This document shows, one piece after another, positions 8,549 through 59,090 of a stretch of 64,000 nt of DNA. Every line of letters starts with the position of its first letter. The stretch's first letter is position 1. The stretch is from Actinopolymorpha singaporensis (GTDB taxonomy: Bacteria > Actinomycetota > Actinomycetes > Propionibacteriales > Actinopolymorphaceae). The notes below the pieces were generated by a model that saw only the letters and a list, made by a program, of their open reading frames with translations, did not search any database and had not been told where the DNA came from. A program made the translations under genes and the position numbers. The stretch spans positions 3,893,981 to 3,957,980 of the forward strand of contig NZ_LT629732.1 in assembly GCF_900104745.1 (NCBI RefSeq), given 5' to 3'.

Positions 8549-9682
8549 TCAGCCAGGAGGCGTGAGCGAGGTCCAGCCGGTGAGGACGTCCAGGACGGGC
8601 CCCTGTGCTCGAGCCTTGGCCTGGGCGTAGGCCTCCTCCAGTACGTCCGCCACCAGGACGCGCCGGCCGTCGCGCGCGGACTCGATGGCGGCGTACACCA
8701 TCGCCAGGCTGGCCACGTTGTCGCGAGCGGTGCCCATCGGGGTCGTCCCCGTCCGCAGGGCGGCGACGAACTCCCGCAACGAACCGGCGATACCGGGGTG
8801 CGGATCCGCCTCCGGGGTGTCGCCCTCCGGCGCGGTCTCCCCGCCCTCGACGATCTCGAGGGTAGGGGGACCGTCGCCGTCCCACAGCGCGGTGCCGTGT
8901 TCGCCGCTGGCCCGCCACGCGGCGTTCCACGAGGTCTCCTGACCGGGGCTGCACCAGCTGCCGGTGTAGACGTAGCGCAGACCGCCGCCGAACTCGAAGA
9001 TCGCGGTGGCGGCGGCGTCACCTGCGTACCAGCTCCAGCCGGGGTTGTACTCCTCGCAGTAGACCGCCACCGGGTCCGCCTCGAGCAGGAACCGCGCGCT
9101 GTCGAAGGCGTGGATGGCCATGTCGAGCACCAGCGGGTGGTCCATCGCGTCCCGGAACCCGCCGAAGTGTGGCGCCTTGAAGAACTCCGCGGTCAGGATG
9201 CCGAGCCGGCCGAGCTGCCGCAGCTGACGGCGGTAGGCGAACAGGTTGGCGTCGTACCGCCTGCTCTGGCTGACCATGAACAACCGGTCGTACGCCTGCG
9301 CGGCCGCGGTCAGCTCCAGCGACTCGGCGAGGTTGGCCGCGAGCGGCTTCTCGCCCAGCACCGGCAGGCCGCGCCGCAGCGCCTCCATCGTCACCGGGTG
9401 GTGGGCCTCCGGGATGGTCACGTCCACCACGAAGTCCGGCTGCACCTGGTCGGCCAGCGCCTCGATCGTCGGCCCGGTCGCCACGTCGCCCGCACCGGCC
9501 TGTTCCAGCGCCTCCTTCGCCCGGGCGACGTCGAGGTCGGCGACGCCGACGAGCTCCACCTGGTCGTACGCCAGCAGCGTGCGCAACCACCCGCGGCCCA
9601 TGCCGCCGGCGCCTACCTGCAGCACCCGCAAGGGCCGGTTGACATCTCCGGACACCGTTCCGGACGCCGTGCCGGGCGTCAT
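8549..9682 (-). CDS. Gfo/Idh/MocA-family oxidoreductase
   Basis: An NAD(P)-dependent sugar or inositol-type dehydrogenase of 377 residues. The Rossmann motif [10 protein letters not shown] lies near the N-terminus, GEKPLA near residue 106 supplies the family's conserved EKP lysine, and the C-terminal half has the family's mixed beta-sheet domain. The ATG at 9682 overlaps the stop of the upstream ThuA gene by four bases (ATGA), so the two are coupled; a longer frame from 9778 would run through that gene. With ThuA and LacI it forms a three-gene sugar-modification operon. The substrate is unknown. Confidence 0.88.
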
Positions 9683-18247: not shown

Positions 18248-19095
18248 GTCCCAGCCTGCGCACCGGCCTGCGGCGCAGGCCGGCACCTGTTCGCCGGCAG
18301 GTCCAGCCGCCCGACCCGCACCCGTCGGGTGCACGGCCGCCGGCCATCCCGCCGGAGCTCGTTCCGAGCCACGTCGCCTTGGTGATGGACGGAAACGGCC
18401 GGTGGGCCAAGGCACGCGGGCTGCCGCGCACACGCGGCCACGAGAAGGGCGAGGGCGCGCTGTTCGACACCATCAAGGGTGCGATCGAGATCGGCGTGAA
18501 AACCCTTTCGGCGTACGCGTTCTCCACCGAGAACTGGTCGCGTTCGCCGGAGGAGGTGCGCTTCCTGATGGGCTTCAACCGCGAGGTGATCCACCGCCGG
18601 CGGGACGAGCTGGACGCCATGGGGGTGCGGGTGCGCTGGGCCGGGCGTCGCCCTCGGCTGTGGAAGAGCGTGATCCGCGAACTCGAGTACGCCGAGGAAC
18701 GCACCCGCGACAACGACGTCATCACCCTGCAGTTCTGCGTCAACTACGGCGGACGGGCAGAACTCACCGACGCGATGCAGGCGATCGCCCGCGACGTGGA
18801 GGCGGGCAGGCTGCGCCCGGACCGGATCGACGAGCGGACGATCGGCCGTTACCTCTACCAGCCGGATCTGCCCGACGTCGACCTGTTCGTCCGGTCGTCG
18901 GGGGAGCAGCGTACGTCCAACTTCATGCTGTGGCAGTCGGCGTACGCCGAGTTCGTCTTCCTGGACACGTTGTTCCCCGACTTCGACCGGCGTGACCTGT
19001 GGCGGGCGATCGAGCTGTACGTCCAGCGCGACCGCAGGTTCGGCGGCGCGATCCCCAACGAGGTGGCCGCCGATCCCGCCCCTGAGGGGGCCTAG
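18244..19095 (+). CDS. uppS: Isoprenyl (undecaprenyl-type) diphosphate synthase, cis-type
   Basis: Cis-prenyltransferase that extends short prenyl diphosphates to the lipid carrier used for peptidoglycan and glycan synthesis. In this 283-residue protein, [17 protein letters not shown] (near 43) has the catalytic Asp and P-loop-like region, AFSTENWSR (near 96) and [20 protein letters not shown] (near 217) are the remaining signature segments, with the conserved Arg and Glu at the C-terminus. ATG 18244 overlaps the recO stop (ATGA), giving translational coupling. Its stop overlaps the convergent zur stop in the palindrome CTAG. Chain length cannot be judged from sequence. Confidence 0.95.
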
Positions 19096-19502
19096 ACCAC
19101 GTCCTGGCGCGCACAGGCGGCGCAGGTGCCGAACACCTCGACGGTGTGGGTGACGTCGACGAACCCGGCCTCGGCGGCGACGCTCTCCGCCCACCGCTCG
19201 ACCGCGGGTCCCTCCACCTCCACCGTGCGCCCGCAGTCGCGGCACACCAGGTGGTGGTGGTGCCGGGCGGTGGCACACCGGCGGTAGACCGTCTCGCCGT
19301 CGTCGGTGCGGATCGCGTCCACCTGCCCGGCGTCCGCCAGCGAGCCGAGCGTGCGGTAGACGGTGGTCAGCCCGACGTTCTCGCCGCGGTCACGCAGCAG
19401 AGCGTGGATGTCCTGGGCGCTGCGGAAGTCCTCGACCCCCTCCAGCACCTCCGCGACCGCGGCCCGCTGCCGGGTCGCGCGGATCCTCGGGTTCGCGCTC
19501 AG
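19092..19502 (-). CDS. zur: Zinc uptake regulator Zur, apparent CTG start
   Basis: Fur-family repressor of 136 residues. It has the winged-helix region [20 protein letters not shown], the metal-site [11 protein letters not shown] and the final CAAC pair for structural zinc. Zur rather than Fur is called because it ends the znu operon. No ATG, GTG or TTG precedes the DNA-binding domain in frame; CTG 19502 lies nine bases after AGGGGAG (19512-19518) and overlaps the znuB stop as CTGA, the exact counterpart of the usual ATGA. The first standard start, GTG 19448, would delete the first helix. Confidence 0.9.
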
Positions 19503-20494
19503 CTGGATCGTCTCCCCTGGGCGGTCTCGTTCTCGTCGGCGAAGTGCTCGTCGTAGTGCGCTCCGTGCGGCGCGTGCCGGTGCCCGTCGTGCAGGTAGTC
19601 GACGTGGTCCTCGTGGGGTACGGCCCGGTGCCCGCACGTGGGGCCGTGAGTGTGCAGGTGGTCCTCGGCCTCGTTGTGCGGCCCGCGCATTCTGGCCCGC
19701 AACGCGGTGCCCGCCGCGGTGAGCACGAACACCGCGATGGCCGCGAGCACGATCGTCGCACCGGAGGGAGTGTCGGCGTAGAAGGAGGTGAAGACACCAC
19801 CCACGCTCACCACCACGCCGACCACCATGGCGGTGGCGACGGTGCCGGCGAAGCTGCGGCCGACCCGCTGCGCGACCGCCACCGGAACGATCATCAGCGC
19901 GCTGACCAGCAACAGGCCGACGACCCGCATCGACACCACGACGGTGACAGCGACCATCACCGCGAGCACGATGTTGAGCACGAGAACCGGCAGGCCGGCA
20001 GCGGTGGCGTACTCCTCGTCGGCGCCGACGGTGAAGAACACCCGGGACATCCCCAGTGCGACTGCCAGCACGACGACGGCGAGGACGGCGAACACCACGA
20101 GATCGCCCGGCGTGGTCGAGGTGATGGATCCGAAGAGGTAGGCGTTCAGGTTTGCCGGCGTGCTGCCGGGGGCCTTGGCCAGCAGCACCACGCCGCCGGC
20201 GATACCGCCGTAGAACATCACCGCCAGGGCGACGTCGCTGCTCGTGCGTCCCTTCGCCCGCATGACCTCGATCAGAACGGCGCCGAGGACCGTGCACACC
20301 AGGGCCGTCCACACCGGGCCGGAACGGGTGAGCAGGCCGATGCCGACGCCGGTGAGCGCGACGTGGCCCATGCCGTCGCCGATCAGGGCGAGCCGGCGTT
20401 GGACGAGGTAGATGCCGACCGCCGGGGCGGACAGGCCGATGAGCAGCGCGGCGAGCAACGCCCGCTGCATGAAGTCGAACTGCAGGATCTCCAT
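19499..20494 (-). CDS. znuB: Zinc ABC transporter permease ZnuB
   Basis: Membrane permease of the zinc uptake system, 331 residues. About eight hydrophobic segments cover residues 8-265, with the ABC-3 family signatures RRLALIGDGMGHVAL (33-47) and LLVSALMIVPVAVA near 205. The C-terminal 60 residues are cytoplasmic-looking and His/Asp/Glu-rich (HLHTHGPTCGHRAVPHEDH), a likely zinc-binding tail that most ZnuB proteins lack. It starts three bases after znuC and its stop overlaps the zur start. Confidence 0.95.
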   Translation of the reverse strand: MEILQFDFMQRALLAALLIGLSAPAVGIYLVQRRLALIGDGMGHVALTGVGIGLLTRSGPVWTALVCTVLGAVLIEVMRAKGRTSSDVALAVMFYGGIAGGVVLLAKAPGSTPANLNAYLFGSITSTTPGDLVVFAVLAVVVLAVALGMSRVFFTVGADEEYATAAGLPVLVLNIVLAVMVAVTVVVSMRVVGLLLVSALMIVPVAVAQRVGRSFAGTVATAMVVGVVVSVGGVFTSFYADTPSGATIVLAAIAVFVLTAAGTALRARMRGPHNEAEDHLHTHGPTCGHRAVPHEDHVDYLHDGHRHAPHGAHYDEHFADENETAQGRRSS

Positions 20495-20497
20495 CGT

Positions 20498-21289
20498 TCA
20501 GTCCACGAATCCGAAGGGGTCTCCCGGCGAGGCCGGCAGGAAGTGCGGATCGGTGCCCGCGAAGCCGTTCAGCACCTCGTCGGTGGGCGGGCCGTCGTAG
20601 CCGACCCGGCCGTGGTGCAGCACGACCGTACGGCCGATCAGGTCGGCGAGCGGGCCGATCTCGTGTGTCACGATGAGCAGCGTGGTGCCGGCCTCCACCA
20701 GGCCGGTGAGCGTCCTGGTGAGGATCTCCTGGTTGGCCAGGTCGACCCCGGCCAGCGGCTCGTCCATCACCAGCATGTCCGGCTCTCCGGCCAGTGCGCG
20801 GGCGATCAGCGCCCGCCGCTGCTGCCCGCCGGACAGCGTGGAGATCTGGGCGCAGGCCTTCTCCTCCAGGCCGACGGTGGCGATGGTGTCGGCGACCACC
20901 GCCCGGTCGGCCGGACGGAGCCAGGGAGTGATCAGCCGCCGGCGGGCCAGCCGGCCTGACGACACCACCTCCTGCACGGTCGCGGGAACCCCGCCGCCGA
21001 CGGTGTGCCGCTGGGGCACGTAACCGATCCGGGCGCGGTCGTGGAACCGGTGCGCGGGCGTGCCGAAGAGCTCGAGCGTCCCGGCCGACAGGGGGACCAG
21101 GCCGAGGATCGCCCGGACCAGGGTCGACTTGCCCGAGCCGTTCGGCCCCAGCAGGGCGACCACCTCACCGGGCGCGACGTCGAGATCGACATCCGACAGC
21201 GCGCGCTGGCCGGCGTAGGAGACCGCGCCTCCACGAAGGCGGACGGCGGCGGCCGTGGAGGTTCCGGCGTCGGGCGGTTTTGTGTTCAC
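20498..21289 (-). CDS. znuC: Zinc ABC transporter ATP-binding protein ZnuC
   Basis: ATPase of the zinc importer, 263 residues. Walker A GPNGSGKST lies near residue 47, the Q-loop within YVPQRH, the signature LSGGQQRR near 150 and Walker B MLVMDEPLAGVD near 170, with the switch His in THEIG. GTG 21289 overlaps the znuA stop (GTGA); the frame runs open far upstream across znuA but only this start gives a normal ZnuC N-terminus. It is co-transcribed with znuA, znuB and zur. Confidence 0.95.
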   Translation of the reverse strand: MNTKPPDAGTSTAAAVRLRGGAVSYAGQRALSDVDLDVAPGEVVALLGPNGSGKSTLVRAILGLVPLSAGTLELFGTPAHRFHDRARIGYVPQRHTVGGGVPATVQEVVSSGRLARRRLITPWLRPADRAVVADTIATVGLEEKACAQISTLSGGQQRRALIARALAGEPDMLVMDEPLAGVDLANQEILTRTLTGLVEAGTTLLIVTHEIGPLADLIGRTVVLHHGRVGYDGPPTDEVLNGFAGTDPHFLPASPGDPFGFVD

Positions 21290-22290
21290 GAGCAGTCCTG
21301 GCCCTTCCGGAGAGTGGCGAGGTTGGCGCGCATGACGGCGATGTAGTCCTTGCCGGCCGACTGGGAGGTCAGCCCCTCCAGCGGGTCGAGGACCGCGTTG
21401 TCGGCCCCGGTCTCCCTGGCCACCGTCTTCGCCACGGCCGGGCTCACCAGCGTCTCGTGGTAGATCGTACGAACGTCGTGTTTGCGGGCGAACGTCGCGG
21501 CGGAGCTGAGCTCGGCGGGGGAGGGCTCCTGGTCCGGGGACAGCCCGGTGATGCCGAACTGCGTGAGGCCGTAGCGATGGGCGAGGTACCCGAACGCGGC
21601 GTGGCTGGTCACCAGGGCGTGGTTGCGGCAGGGGGCCAGACCGGTCCGGAACTCCCGGTCCAGCGTGGTGAGGTCGGTGCGAAGCCGGTCGGCGTTCGCG
21701 CGGAACGAAGCGGCGCGGCCGGGGTCGGCGGCGGCGAGCCGCTCGGCGATGGCGTCGCCCACGGCGGCCAGCCGGAGCGGATCCAGCCAGAAGTGCGGGT
21801 CCTTGCCCGACGCGACGCTGTCGGCTTCCTCGCCGCCCTCGACGTTGTTGTCGTGGTTGTCGTGCCCCGCGTGGCCGGACTCGCCGGCGCTCGGCGCGGG
21901 CAGCGTCAGCCTGGCGGAGCCGGTCACGTCCAGGCTGTGGTCGCCGGCCTCCTGGTGCACCGCGGAGTCCACGGCCGGCTGGAGACCGCGCAGGTAGACG
22001 ACGAGGTCGGCCTCGCTCACCGTCCCCACCGCCCGCGGCGACAGCTCCAGGTCGTGCGGCTCGGCGCCCGGTTTGGTGAGGTTGACCACGTTCGCGGCGT
22101 CGCCGGCGACGCGCTCGGCGGCGTACTGCAACGGGTAGAACGCCGCCACCACGCTCAGCCGGTCTCCGTCGCCCGAACCGGATCCGGACTCCGATCCGCA
22201 CGCGGTGAGCAGGCTTCCGGCGCACAGTCCGGCGAAGGCGACGGCGGCGAACCGCCTTACGGAAGCGGCCCGCCGGATCGTGGAGAACAT
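21286..22290 (-). CDS. znuA: Zinc-binding lipoprotein ZnuA
   Basis: Extracellular zinc-capture lipoprotein of the cluster A-I family, 334 residues. A signal peptide ends in the lipobox LLTAC (Cys31). Metal-ligand regions follow: GAEPHDLEL, a His/Asp/Glu loop (HAGHDNHDNN) before DPHFWLDP, TSHAAFGYL, and a late HETLVSP/ADNAVLDPL pair. ATG 22290 is preferred: the start at 22326 would extend through the Zur box. There is no Shine-Dalgarno, so the transcript may be leaderless. It heads the znuACB-zur operon. Confidence 0.94.
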   Translation of the reverse strand: MFSTIRRAASVRRFAAVAFAGLCAGSLLTACGSESGSGSGDGDRLSVVAAFYPLQYAAERVAGDAANVVNLTKPGAEPHDLELSPRAVGTVSEADLVVYLRGLQPAVDSAVHQEAGDHSLDVTGSARLTLPAPSAGESGHAGHDNHDNNVEGGEEADSVASGKDPHFWLDPLRLAAVGDAIAERLAAADPGRAASFRANADRLRTDLTTLDREFRTGLAPCRNHALVTSHAAFGYLAHRYGLTQFGITGLSPDQEPSPAELSSAATFARKHDVRTIYHETLVSPAVAKTVARETGADNAVLDPLEGLTSQSAGKDYIAVMRANLATLRKGQDCS

Positions 22291-22305
22291 GAGAACCATT
22301 TTCAA
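22290..22305 (-). promoter_or_regulatory. Zur box overlapping the znuA start
   Basis: On the minus strand TTGAAAATGGTTCTCA closely matches the actinobacterial Zur operator (TGAAAATGATTTTCA type). Its last base is the A of the znuA ATG. Zn-bound Zur here would block initiation, and because zur is the last gene of the operon, this is an autoregulatory loop. Confidence 0.8.
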
Positions 22306-22332
22306 CAAGCGGCCTGGTGCTGTCAACTCGGC

Positions 22333-24495: not shown

Positions 24496-25308
24496 ATGAC
24501 ACGACGAACCAAGCCGTTCCGGCCGGCCGACTCCCCTCGGCCCGCCCGGCTGCGGCGTACGCTCCGCCCGGCCGCACTCGTCGGGCTGGCCGGCCTCGCC
24601 CTCGGCGTCACCGTCGGCTGCGGCCCGCTCGGCGCCCTGACGAACTCGGCGGACTCGGCCCGCTCGCGAACCCCGGAGCCGAGCTCGACCGCCCATCCGG
24701 GCGACATCTCCCTGCGCAAGCTCACCAGCGCGACCGACACACCGAAGCCGACGCCCACGAAGACGCCCACCCCCACACCGACGGTCACCCTCACCCCGTT
24801 GCCCCGGCCGACCAGCACCTACCCGGCGCCGAAGCTGCCGCCGGCGCCCAAGGACGAGGCGCCGGAACTGGAGCGGATCAGGTACAAGCTGGAGACGATC
24901 GTGTGGGCCTCGGCGGGCGAGGTGGACGAGAAGGGCACGAAGTCCACGTGCTCGAAGTCCGAGGACGACATCGTCGCGCTCGGCACGTACAAGTTCACCT
25001 GCGACGTGAGGCTGGACGACGTGCAGACCCGGTTCGCGATCACCGCCACGGTGAAGAAGTCCGAGGTCAACTGGGGCTGGTCGGCGGCCAAGCTACCGGT
25101 GACGGAGAAGAAGGCGGTGTACGAGGCGACCCGCCAGGCGTTCCGGCCGGCGCGGGTGACCTGCGACGTCACCGACCTGGAAGCCGTCGAGGTCGGCACG
25201 AGCAGCGGACTGACCTGCTGGGTCACCGACGTCTACAACGACAGCGTGACCTACCACGGCAAGCTGCTGCCCAACGGCGCGCTCGCGTTCGAGCCGGACG
25301 GCTCATGA
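24496..25308 (+). CDS. Putative lipoprotein with duplicated Cys domain
   Basis: About 270 residues from ATG 24496. An Arg-rich N-terminus and hydrophobic stretch lead to a lipobox-like VTVGC near residue 44, then a Thr/Pro-rich linker (TPKPTPTKTPTPTPT), a cell-wall-spanning type. The C-terminal 150 residues contain two similar modules, each with a Cys pair (STCSK...FTCDV and VTCDV...LTCWV), likely disulphide-bonded; this resembles DUF4333-like secreted domains, but I am not certain. Its stop overlaps the dus start by four bases. An earlier ATG at 24469 is in frame. Confidence 0.7.
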   Translation: MTRRTKPFRPADSPRPARLRRTLRPAALVGLAGLALGVTVGCGPLGALTNSADSARSRTPEPSSTAHPGDISLRKLTSATDTPKPTPTKTPTPTPTVTLTPLPRPTSTYPAPKLPPAPKDEAPELERIRYKLETIVWASAGEVDEKGTKSTCSKSEDDIVALGTYKFTCDVRLDDVQTRFAITATVKKSEVNWGWSAAKLPVTEKKAVYEATRQAFRPARVTCDVTDLEAVEVGTSSGLTCWVTDVYNDSVTYHGKLLPNGALAFEPDGS

Positions 25309-57665: not shown

Positions 57666-59090
57666 ATGCAGGGTTTCTCCAGGTCTCCTGGTGTGGACGG
57701 ACCCCTGAGCGATGCTGCTCGGGAGGGGCGGCGCAAGATCTGGCGCTGGGCGGGTCTCATCGCGGTTGGTGGTTTTCTGTTTGGTTATGACACCGGTGTC
57801 GTCTCTGGTGCGCTGCTGTTCTTCAAGCAGGACTTCCACCTGGATCGATTCCAGCAGGGCAGCGTGGTCAGCGTTCTGCTGTTGGGCGCGATAGCAGGCG
57901 CACTGGGAGTCAGCCGGGTGTCGGATCGCTGGGGACGCAGGATGACCCTGGGGCTGGAGGGCGTTGTGTTCCTGGTCGGGACCGTTGTTCTGGTGACCGC
58001 GCAGGGCTACGCGATGATGTTGGTGGGAAGGTTTGTGCTCGGCCTGGCAGTGGGTGCCGCGTCGGCCACCGTTCCGGTTTACCTGTCGGAGATCTCACCT
58101 GCGTCGATCCGCGGGCGCGTGCTCACGGTCAATCAACTGCTGCTCACAGCCGGGATCCTTGTCGCCTACGGCGTAAACCTCGCATTCAGTAGCAGCGGCA
58201 ACTGGCGGGCGATGTTTGCCGCCGGCGGGATACCCGCGCTTGTTCTGGCAATCGGCTCGCTGCGGCTCCCCGAGTCTCCCGCGTGGCAGCTCGCGCACGG
58301 TCAGGGCGACCGCGCCCGCGCCATGATCGCGTCGGTCGCTGGCGAGTCCAGGGCCGATGAGGTCGTCGAACGCTTCGAATCCACGCGGCGCTCCCTGCAG
58401 CAGGAAGATGACTCGCAGCGGGGGCGGTCGGTGCTGCTCTCTGCGCGGGTCCGCCCGGCGCTGGCCGTGGGGCTCACCCTCGCCGCCCTGCAACAGTTCG
58501 GCGGCATCAACACGATCATCTACTACGCGCCGACGATCATCCAGGAGACGGGACTGTCAGCGTCCAACTCGATCTTCTACTCCGTGGCGATCGGGGCCAT
58601 CAACCTCATCATGACGATCGTCGCCATTCGGCTGGTTGATCGGCTGGGCCGGCGCCCGCTGCTGTTGTTCTCGCTCGCGGTCATGATGGTCATGCTCGCG
58701 CTGCTGGGCCTGACGTTCGTCGCTGGGCTGGGATCGGTGCTGCCGGTGGTGTTCATGGTTCTCTACATCGCCGCTTTCGCGGCAGGTCTGGGGCCGGTGT
58801 TCTGGGTGCTGATCGGCGAGATCTTCCCTGCCAACGCGCACGCTGCCGGGTCCAGCGCCTCGACGGCGGTGAACTGGACGTCGAACTTTGTGGTCAGCCT
58901 CTTCTTCCTTCCGGTCGTCGGGTTGATCGGCCAAGGCGAAACGTTCTGGGTCTTCGCGGTCGTCTGCCTGCTGGGCCTGATGTTTGTCCTCCGCTACGTC
59001 CCCGAGACACGTAACCGTGACTTCGCCGAGATCGATGCGGAGTTGCAGGCACGAGCGGGGCGCCGGCCGGTGTCCAGGACCAGCCAGTGA
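57666..59090 (+). CDS. MFS sugar porter (sugar:proton symporter family)
   Basis: A 474-residue transporter with 12 hydrophobic segments. Sugar-porter signatures are present: GYDTGVVSGALLF (TM1), SDRWGRR near 95, PVYLSEISPASIRGR near 143, QQFGGINTIIYYAPTI near 280 and VPETRNRDFAEID at the C-terminus. Probable substrates are glucose, xylose or inositol. ATG 57666 follows CGGAGG. Its stop overlaps the start of the FUSC gene (GTGA), and it is preceded by the glucose-dehydrogenase-like gene at 56466 on the same strand. Confidence 0.93.
   Translation: MQGFSRSPGVDGPLSDAAREGRRKIWRWAGLIAVGGFLFGYDTGVVSGALLFFKQDFHLDRFQQGSVVSVLLLGAIAGALGVSRVSDRWGRRMTLGLEGVVFLVGTVVLVTAQGYAMMLVGRFVLGLAVGAASATVPVYLSEISPASIRGRVLTVNQLLLTAGILVAYGVNLAFSSSGNWRAMFAAGGIPALVLAIGSLRLPESPAWQLAHGQGDRARAMIASVAGESRADEVVERFESTRRSLQQEDDSQRGRSVLLSARVRPALAVGLTLAALQQFGGINTIIYYAPTIIQETGLSASNSIFYSVAIGAINLIMTIVAIRLVDRLGRRPLLLFSLAVMMVMLALLGLTFVAGLGSVLPVVFMVLYIAAFAAGLGPVFWVLIGEIFPANAHAAGSSASTAVNWTSNFVVSLFFLPVVGLIGQGETFWVFAVVCLLGLMFVLRYVPETRNRDFAEIDAELQARAGRRPVSRTSQ

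Follow-up and report, generated by a model that had tools for sequence, protein, structure and literature searches.

The zur gene and its junction with znuB

Where does translation of zur begin in Actinopolymorpha singaporensis? The window analysed here, a 64,000-nucleotide stretch of this genome, carries on its minus strand znuA, znuC, znuB and zur, in that order. The last of them encodes a Fur-family zinc regulator and reads as 136 codons (19092..19502, minus strand) if taken from CTG 19502 to TAG 19094-19092. An earlier note on this DNA had proposed that CTG, a very rare codon in this role, as a start coupled to znuB, and of the readings considered it is the one that best fits a comparison of relatives. 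We consider it probable that zur is translated from CUG 19502 by ribosomes that have only just completed ZnuB. This judgement does not extend to the further step, in which the weak codon would keep Zur scarce relative to the transporter.

The proposed start codon (19500..19502, minus strand) does overlap the znuB stop TGA (19499..19501, minus strand) as CTGA, and the Shine-Dalgarno sequence placed by the earlier note at 19512-19518 (minus strand) is found as AGGGGAG, 9 nt 5' of CTG and within the last znuB codons. The five other gene pairs to which this geometry had been likened are also present in the window: ATGA at 9682 (minus strand), GTGA at 21289 (minus strand), ATGA at 25305 and 44235 (plus strand) and GTGA at 59087 (plus strand). 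Termination-reinitiation where genes overlap is an established process, and -4 nt is reported as the commonest spacing (PMC10666635, PMC12548453); this overlap is given as ATGA or GTGA in the former source and written NTGA in the latter. Four genomes share the CTGA, and in each the znuB frame was followed to its TGA, which makes the spacing a -4 nt overlap if CTG is the start. The start itself is neither ATG nor GTG, and the znuB-zur pair is therefore a variant rather than an ordinary -4 nt pair.

Upstream in the zur frame the canonical codons (ATG, GTG or TTG) are GTG 20312, GTG 20297 and GTG 19637, all of them within znuB. GTG 19637 is the nearest, 45 codons before CTG, and the next in-frame canonical codon 3' of it is GTG 19448, codon 19 of zur. 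The claim that no ATG, GTG or TTG precedes the Zur domain in frame thus holds in effect, though not to the letter, as GTG 19637 exists.

Identity of the Zur protein

The Pfam FUR profile (PF01475) covers residues 7-123 of the predicted protein, nearly its full length (E-value = 1.6e-32). The best match among solved structures is 3mwm (E-value = 8.1e-58, 197 bits), annotated as a putative metal uptake regulation protein, which we take to be the Zur of S. coelicolor. FurB (2o03) matches at 5.2e-49 and 169 bits, and the top chain named as a ferric regulator reaches 76 bits, far below both. A search of the NCBIfam profiles returned no equivalog at cut-off; the ferric-regulator models (79 bits) scored above the Zur-named model (46 of 167 bits).

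The protein is 63-96% identical to 31 other Zurs. In the alignment of all 32 sequences, D62, C76, H81 and H83, C87, C90 and C127, and E102 and H119 are invariant, and C130 is at least 90% conserved; the roles of these positions as zinc ligands are presumably those of their FurB counterparts. A second Zur-like gene (L009), with 55% identity to the window's Zur, is seen in one relative, the congener G003.

The start codon among relatives

The zur start was compared in six genomes of the genus and eight of the family. The homologous codon is CTG in the window's genome and in G004, G002 and G005, that is, in four of the six congeners. It is ATG in G003 and GTG in G001, G006 and G007; these RTG relatives are the two remaining congeners and two further family members. 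The earlier note had proposed looking for the same CTGA in related genomes, and it is indeed found at the identical codon in four of the six genomes of the genus. The recurrence of both codon and overlap in four separate genomes points to more than chance or a sequencing error at 19502. The four CTG genomes form one clade, with a bootstrap value of 100 in both protein and DNA trees. Among the RTG relatives, G003, G001 and G007 exhibit an extra in-frame GTG three codons upstream of the RTG start, part of GAGGAGGTG, and G006 has an in-frame ATG and GTG five and six codons upstream of the assigned start, so that the exact starts in these genomes are deduced from spacing and alignment.

A wider set of 150 actinobacterial zur loci (110 plus 40 further) was picked by similarity, and is therefore not a random sample; the paralogue loci L002, L003 and L009 were excluded. 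We sought ATG, GTG or TTG in frame from 40 codons before to 3 codons after a conserved motif. The presence of such a codon does not prove its use as a start, but its absence was observed at only four of the 150 loci, and all four are those of the CTG clade. At the level of the sequence, the lack of a usable ATG, GTG or TTG start in zur is confirmed. The 12 nt located 5' of CTG show 6 differences summed over all pairs of the four CTG genomes, and the preceding 39 nt show 105, a number inflated by the ungapped comparison.

Origin of the overlap

The znuB gene (19499..20494, minus strand) encodes a zinc ABC permease (Pfam ABC-3, E-value = 3.3e-61), and its ends were compared in the eight genomes. 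In the RTG relatives znuB stops shortly after a common HYDEH motif, and its stop precedes zur by 130, 120, 48 and 101 nt (first base of the stop to first base of the start) in G003, G001, G006 and G007, respectively. A TGA that follows the zur start in these relatives was rejected as the znuB stop by tracing znuB to its own stop. In the window, ZnuB combines a His-rich tail with a C-terminal extension specific to the clade, 14 residues past HYDEH, which reaches the zur start. The tails of the four CTG genomes run 14, 32, 22 and 26 residues past HYDEH, their lengths differing by whole codons and in frame, and all end in QGRRSS followed by the TGA inside the zur start. The Shine-Dalgarno sequence of zur lies within this extension.

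Judging from these gene ends, the znuB-zur overlap is a derived one: within the eight-genome family, ZnuB runs into the zur start only in the CTG genomes. The earlier note had seen nothing unusual in the overlap. It is, however, an innovation of the CTG clade, and our explanation differs from the earlier one for this reason. Since the four CTG genomes are one clade, the gain of the overlap and the change from RTG to CTG fall on one branch, and a single event in a single clade makes their co-occurrence an association only (n = 1). Among the 150 loci, znuB was not found at 15, its stop is more than 160 nt away at 7, and it lies near zur without an in-frame NTGA at 83; the in-frame znuB overlaps comprise 30 ATGA, 12 CTGA and 3 GTGA. 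Eight of the 12 CTGA overlaps are followed by a canonical codon, and the other four are those of the CTG clade.

The CTG may well be used without any regulatory role, the overlap having guaranteed a supply of ribosomes, so that a change from ATG or GTG to CTG was tolerated and fixed by drift. We give this reading somewhat less than an even chance. It is favoured by the fact that only one event is seen, and by the retention of the C, which is no higher than that of third-base C overall: at codons whose amino acid is the same throughout, the four CTG genomes all retain a third-base C in 123 of 157 cases in znuB and 53 of 64 in zur. Selection for the C of CTG is thus unsupported by the comparison with znuB and zur codons. 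On the other hand, three single substitutions would improve the start and none is seen in any of the four species, a point that counts for little given this control.

Two other features of the region may be mentioned. The His- and Asp-rich C-terminal tail of ZnuB (GPTCGH...HEDHVDYLHDGHRHAPHGAHYDEH; 19499-19670, minus strand) is much alike across the family genomes, and may serve the permease in binding zinc. At its 3' end, zur meets the convergent uppS on one palindromic CTAG (19092-19095) that provides a TAG on each strand; the two stops overlap also in G004, not in G002, G005 or G003, and in the other three relatives no uppS turned up in the stretch examined.

Alternative starts of Zur

Three other codons, ATC 19508, GTG 19448 and GTG 19637, were considered as starts, and none of them is preserved throughout the four CTG genomes. 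ATC (19506..19508, minus strand) is a rare start codon two codons upstream of CTG. It occupies this position in three of the four CTG genomes and in G006, and the similar ATT is reported as enriched at starts in mycobacteria (PMC4633059). However, the codon is GTC in G004, it sits only 3 nt from the Shine-Dalgarno sequence, and no RTG relative has a canonical codon at its position, which makes it an improbable start.

Initiation at GTG 19448 (19446..19448, minus strand), giving a shorter protein, is less probable still. This is the earliest canonical codon past the znuB stop in the window's genome and in G004, but it is GCG in G002 and G005. The first canonical codon after CTG is codon 19 in the former two genomes, 45 in G002 and 36 in G005, in each case past conserved residues. 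The sequence supports harm to the protein from a start at GTG 19448, for which the earlier note had predicted loss of the first HTH helix: such a start would remove R8, T10, Q12, R13, A15 and V16, each at least 90% conserved among the 32 Zurs, and the 3mwm match already starts at residue 6. A gene caller limited to ATG, GTG and TTG and starting past the znuB stop would trim 18 residues from Zur in the window's genome and G004, 44 in G002 and 35 in G005.

We see equally little probability in a start far upstream, either as a ZnuB-Zur fusion made by frameshifting or from GTG 19637 in the shadow frame of znuB, even though three of the CTG genomes keep the zur frame open deep into znuB and all four have a GGGG run 5' of the overlap. 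In G004 a TGA lying 15 codons ahead of CTG closes this frame, and between that stop and the domain there is no canonical codon. A slippery heptamer XXXYYYZ in phase within 80 nt is absent from three of the four genomes, and the site in G005 is not common to the others. G002 and G005 lack a counterpart of GTG 19637, their open frame ahead of the domain being free of canonical codons.

From CTG to codon 19, the sole amino-acid change among the four CTG genomes is at codon 2, and when the pairs are summed, codons 19-120 show 92 synonymous codon differences and 32 non-synonymous ones; judging from this pattern, purifying selection is still acting on zur in the four. That zur is decaying and untranslated in this clade, as its missing canonical start might suggest, is the least probable reading of all, given a protein identity of 92-96% with mostly synonymous changes and no internal stop, the retained zinc-ligand positions and the Zur box retained at znuA.

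CTG starts elsewhere in the clade

Genes were called with a codon model in 400 kb each of the window's genome, G002 and G004, giving 294, 277 and 306 genes, respectively. No canonical codon was found from -25 to +12 codons around the coding boundary in 24, 19 and 20 of them, a screen that is blind to CTG starts with a canonical codon close by. Eighteen of the 24 genes flagged in the window's genome were matched in another block and 6 had no match. Three genes, zur among them, carried the flag in every one of the three genomes. One of the other two has a common GTG further in (codons 25, 39 and 43 from the boundary), and the other forms the end of a longer frame that offers many canonical codons upstream. 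This leaves zur as the sole gene flagged in all three 400-kb blocks for which no canonical start was found. Five more genes were flagged in the window's genome and one other; three were examined, and these probably start further upstream.

The 400-kb block of the window's genome contains 45 NTGA junctions, of which 9 are CTGA. In six of these an ATG follows after one or two codons, and one has a GTG common to G002 and G004. The remaining two are zur and a gene whose match to longer G002 and G004 genes is confined to their later part. Within the 400 kb of the three genomes, there is no sign that CTG starts are in general use in the clade. Apart from this, a 509-codon gene of the same genome outside the window (near position 342 of L121) matches its counterparts only partially, from residue 456 on in G004 and residue 485 on in G002, as if split.

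The znu gene cluster and its Zur box

The ATPase gene znuC (20498..21289, minus strand) scores against AztA (1.9e-46) and ZnuC (4.9e-29), both under cut-offs, and its start GTG 21289 overlaps the znuA stop as GTGA. The zinc-binding lipoprotein gene znuA (21286..22290, minus strand) matches AztC (3.1e-44) and ZnuA (5.4e-28), again under cut-offs, with a profile query that began at 22326; its likely start is ATG 22290, which yields a lipoprotein-like signal.

A Zur box, TGAAAATGGTTCTCA, is located at the znuA start (22290..22304, minus strand), with zero mismatches to TGANAANNNTTNTCA, the motif taken from PMC5472717 and PMC2823685. Matches with at most one mismatch are expected 0.08 times per window, and 8 of 100 shuffles contained one. 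Each of the eight family genomes has one box in the 5 kb examined, at znuA, that of G004 with one mismatch; no box (at most one mismatch, 5 kb in each of the eight genomes) was found between znuB and zur. The conserved location suggests that the znu genes, and zur if it is cotranscribed, are probably repressed by Zur. In all eight genomes the last base of the box is the A of an ATG, and the box follows a common TTGACA by 16 or 17 nt as counted by eye (16 nt in the window). With its box overlapping the ATG and following TTGACA, the znuA transcript may be leaderless; in C. glutamicum, leaderless transcription of certain Zur targets has been reported (PMC2823685).

Probable initiation at CUG and a possible mechanism

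AGGGGAG is common to the four CTG genomes. Against a 16S end that we assumed for the calculation, the Shine-Dalgarno duplex energies are -9.6, -13.2, -13.8 and -13.8 kcal/mol in the CTG genomes and -20.3, -15.5, -13.6 and -15.5 kcal/mol in the RTG relatives. Pairing in the CTG genomes is weaker on the whole, but not clearly so, as the two sets touch. The predicted fold of 120 nt around the zur start, uncorrected for base composition, is -45.0 to -66.1 kcal/mol in the CTG genomes against -38.9 to -44.3 kcal/mol in the RTG relatives; a stronger fold would hinder fresh initiation. No common RNA fold was seen at the zur start. Weaker pairing together with a stronger fold is what would be expected if initiation depends on ribosomes arriving from znuB, and is an association only.

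In a reporter selection in M. smegmatis, CTG was reported as not enriched at a Shine-Dalgarno-led start (0.03%; PMC4633059), which suggests that CUG should be weak and that an actinobacterial gene depending on it probably needs help. For zur, restarting ribosomes would be the obvious help. We infer that CUG is the codon used and termination-reinitiation the route. In the ancestor of the four species, the znuB frame would have been extended to a TGA overlapping the zur start, and that start would have turned into CTG where relatives keep ATG or GTG. A ribosome ending ZnuB would then halt with the zur start in or beside its P site, AGGGGAG would assist the restart, and fMet-tRNA would begin on CUG.

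It is plausible that the CTG lowers Zur relative to ZnuABC. In S. coelicolor the Zur level is reported to be nearly constant under zinc change (PMC5472717); coupling of zur to an induced operon would raise Zur, and a weak start would offset this. More broadly, the gain of the stop-start overlap may have freed zur from the ATG/GTG/TTG rule, restarting ribosomes picking their start by position, and the weak CUG would limit the repressor of a self-repressing operon. We regard this wider proposal as possible but rather unlikely. If true, a codon nearly inert for fresh actinobacterial initiation would suffice for restarting ribosomes. The family offers matched zur genes, RTG without overlap and CTG with it, which make it testable whether restarting bacterial ribosomes are laxer on the start codon.

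Comparison with known systems

A limited literature search gave no bacterial zur with a CTG start among the matches listed. The closest parallels to znuB-zur are the coupled ATGA and GTGA pairs described in PMC6728339, PMC10666635 and PMC12548453, which share with it the overlap geometry and the Shine-Dalgarno sequence inside the upstream gene; they differ from it in that the proposed zur start is CTG. Non-AUG starts are reported to be tolerated in the termination-reinitiation of caliciviruses and influenza B virus (PMC5972666), but these use eukaryotic ribosomes and provide an analogy only. S. coelicolor resembles the present case in its Zur protein and in the Zur box at znuA (PMC5472717); the account of that system describes a Zur level steady under zinc change, whereas here zur overlaps znuB. 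The lacI gene of a commensal E. coli starts with GTG, not CTG. As proposed for zur, it is a repressor gene with a weak start, and its GTG is reported to accompany less repressor and a raised basal expression of the operon (PMC11445065).
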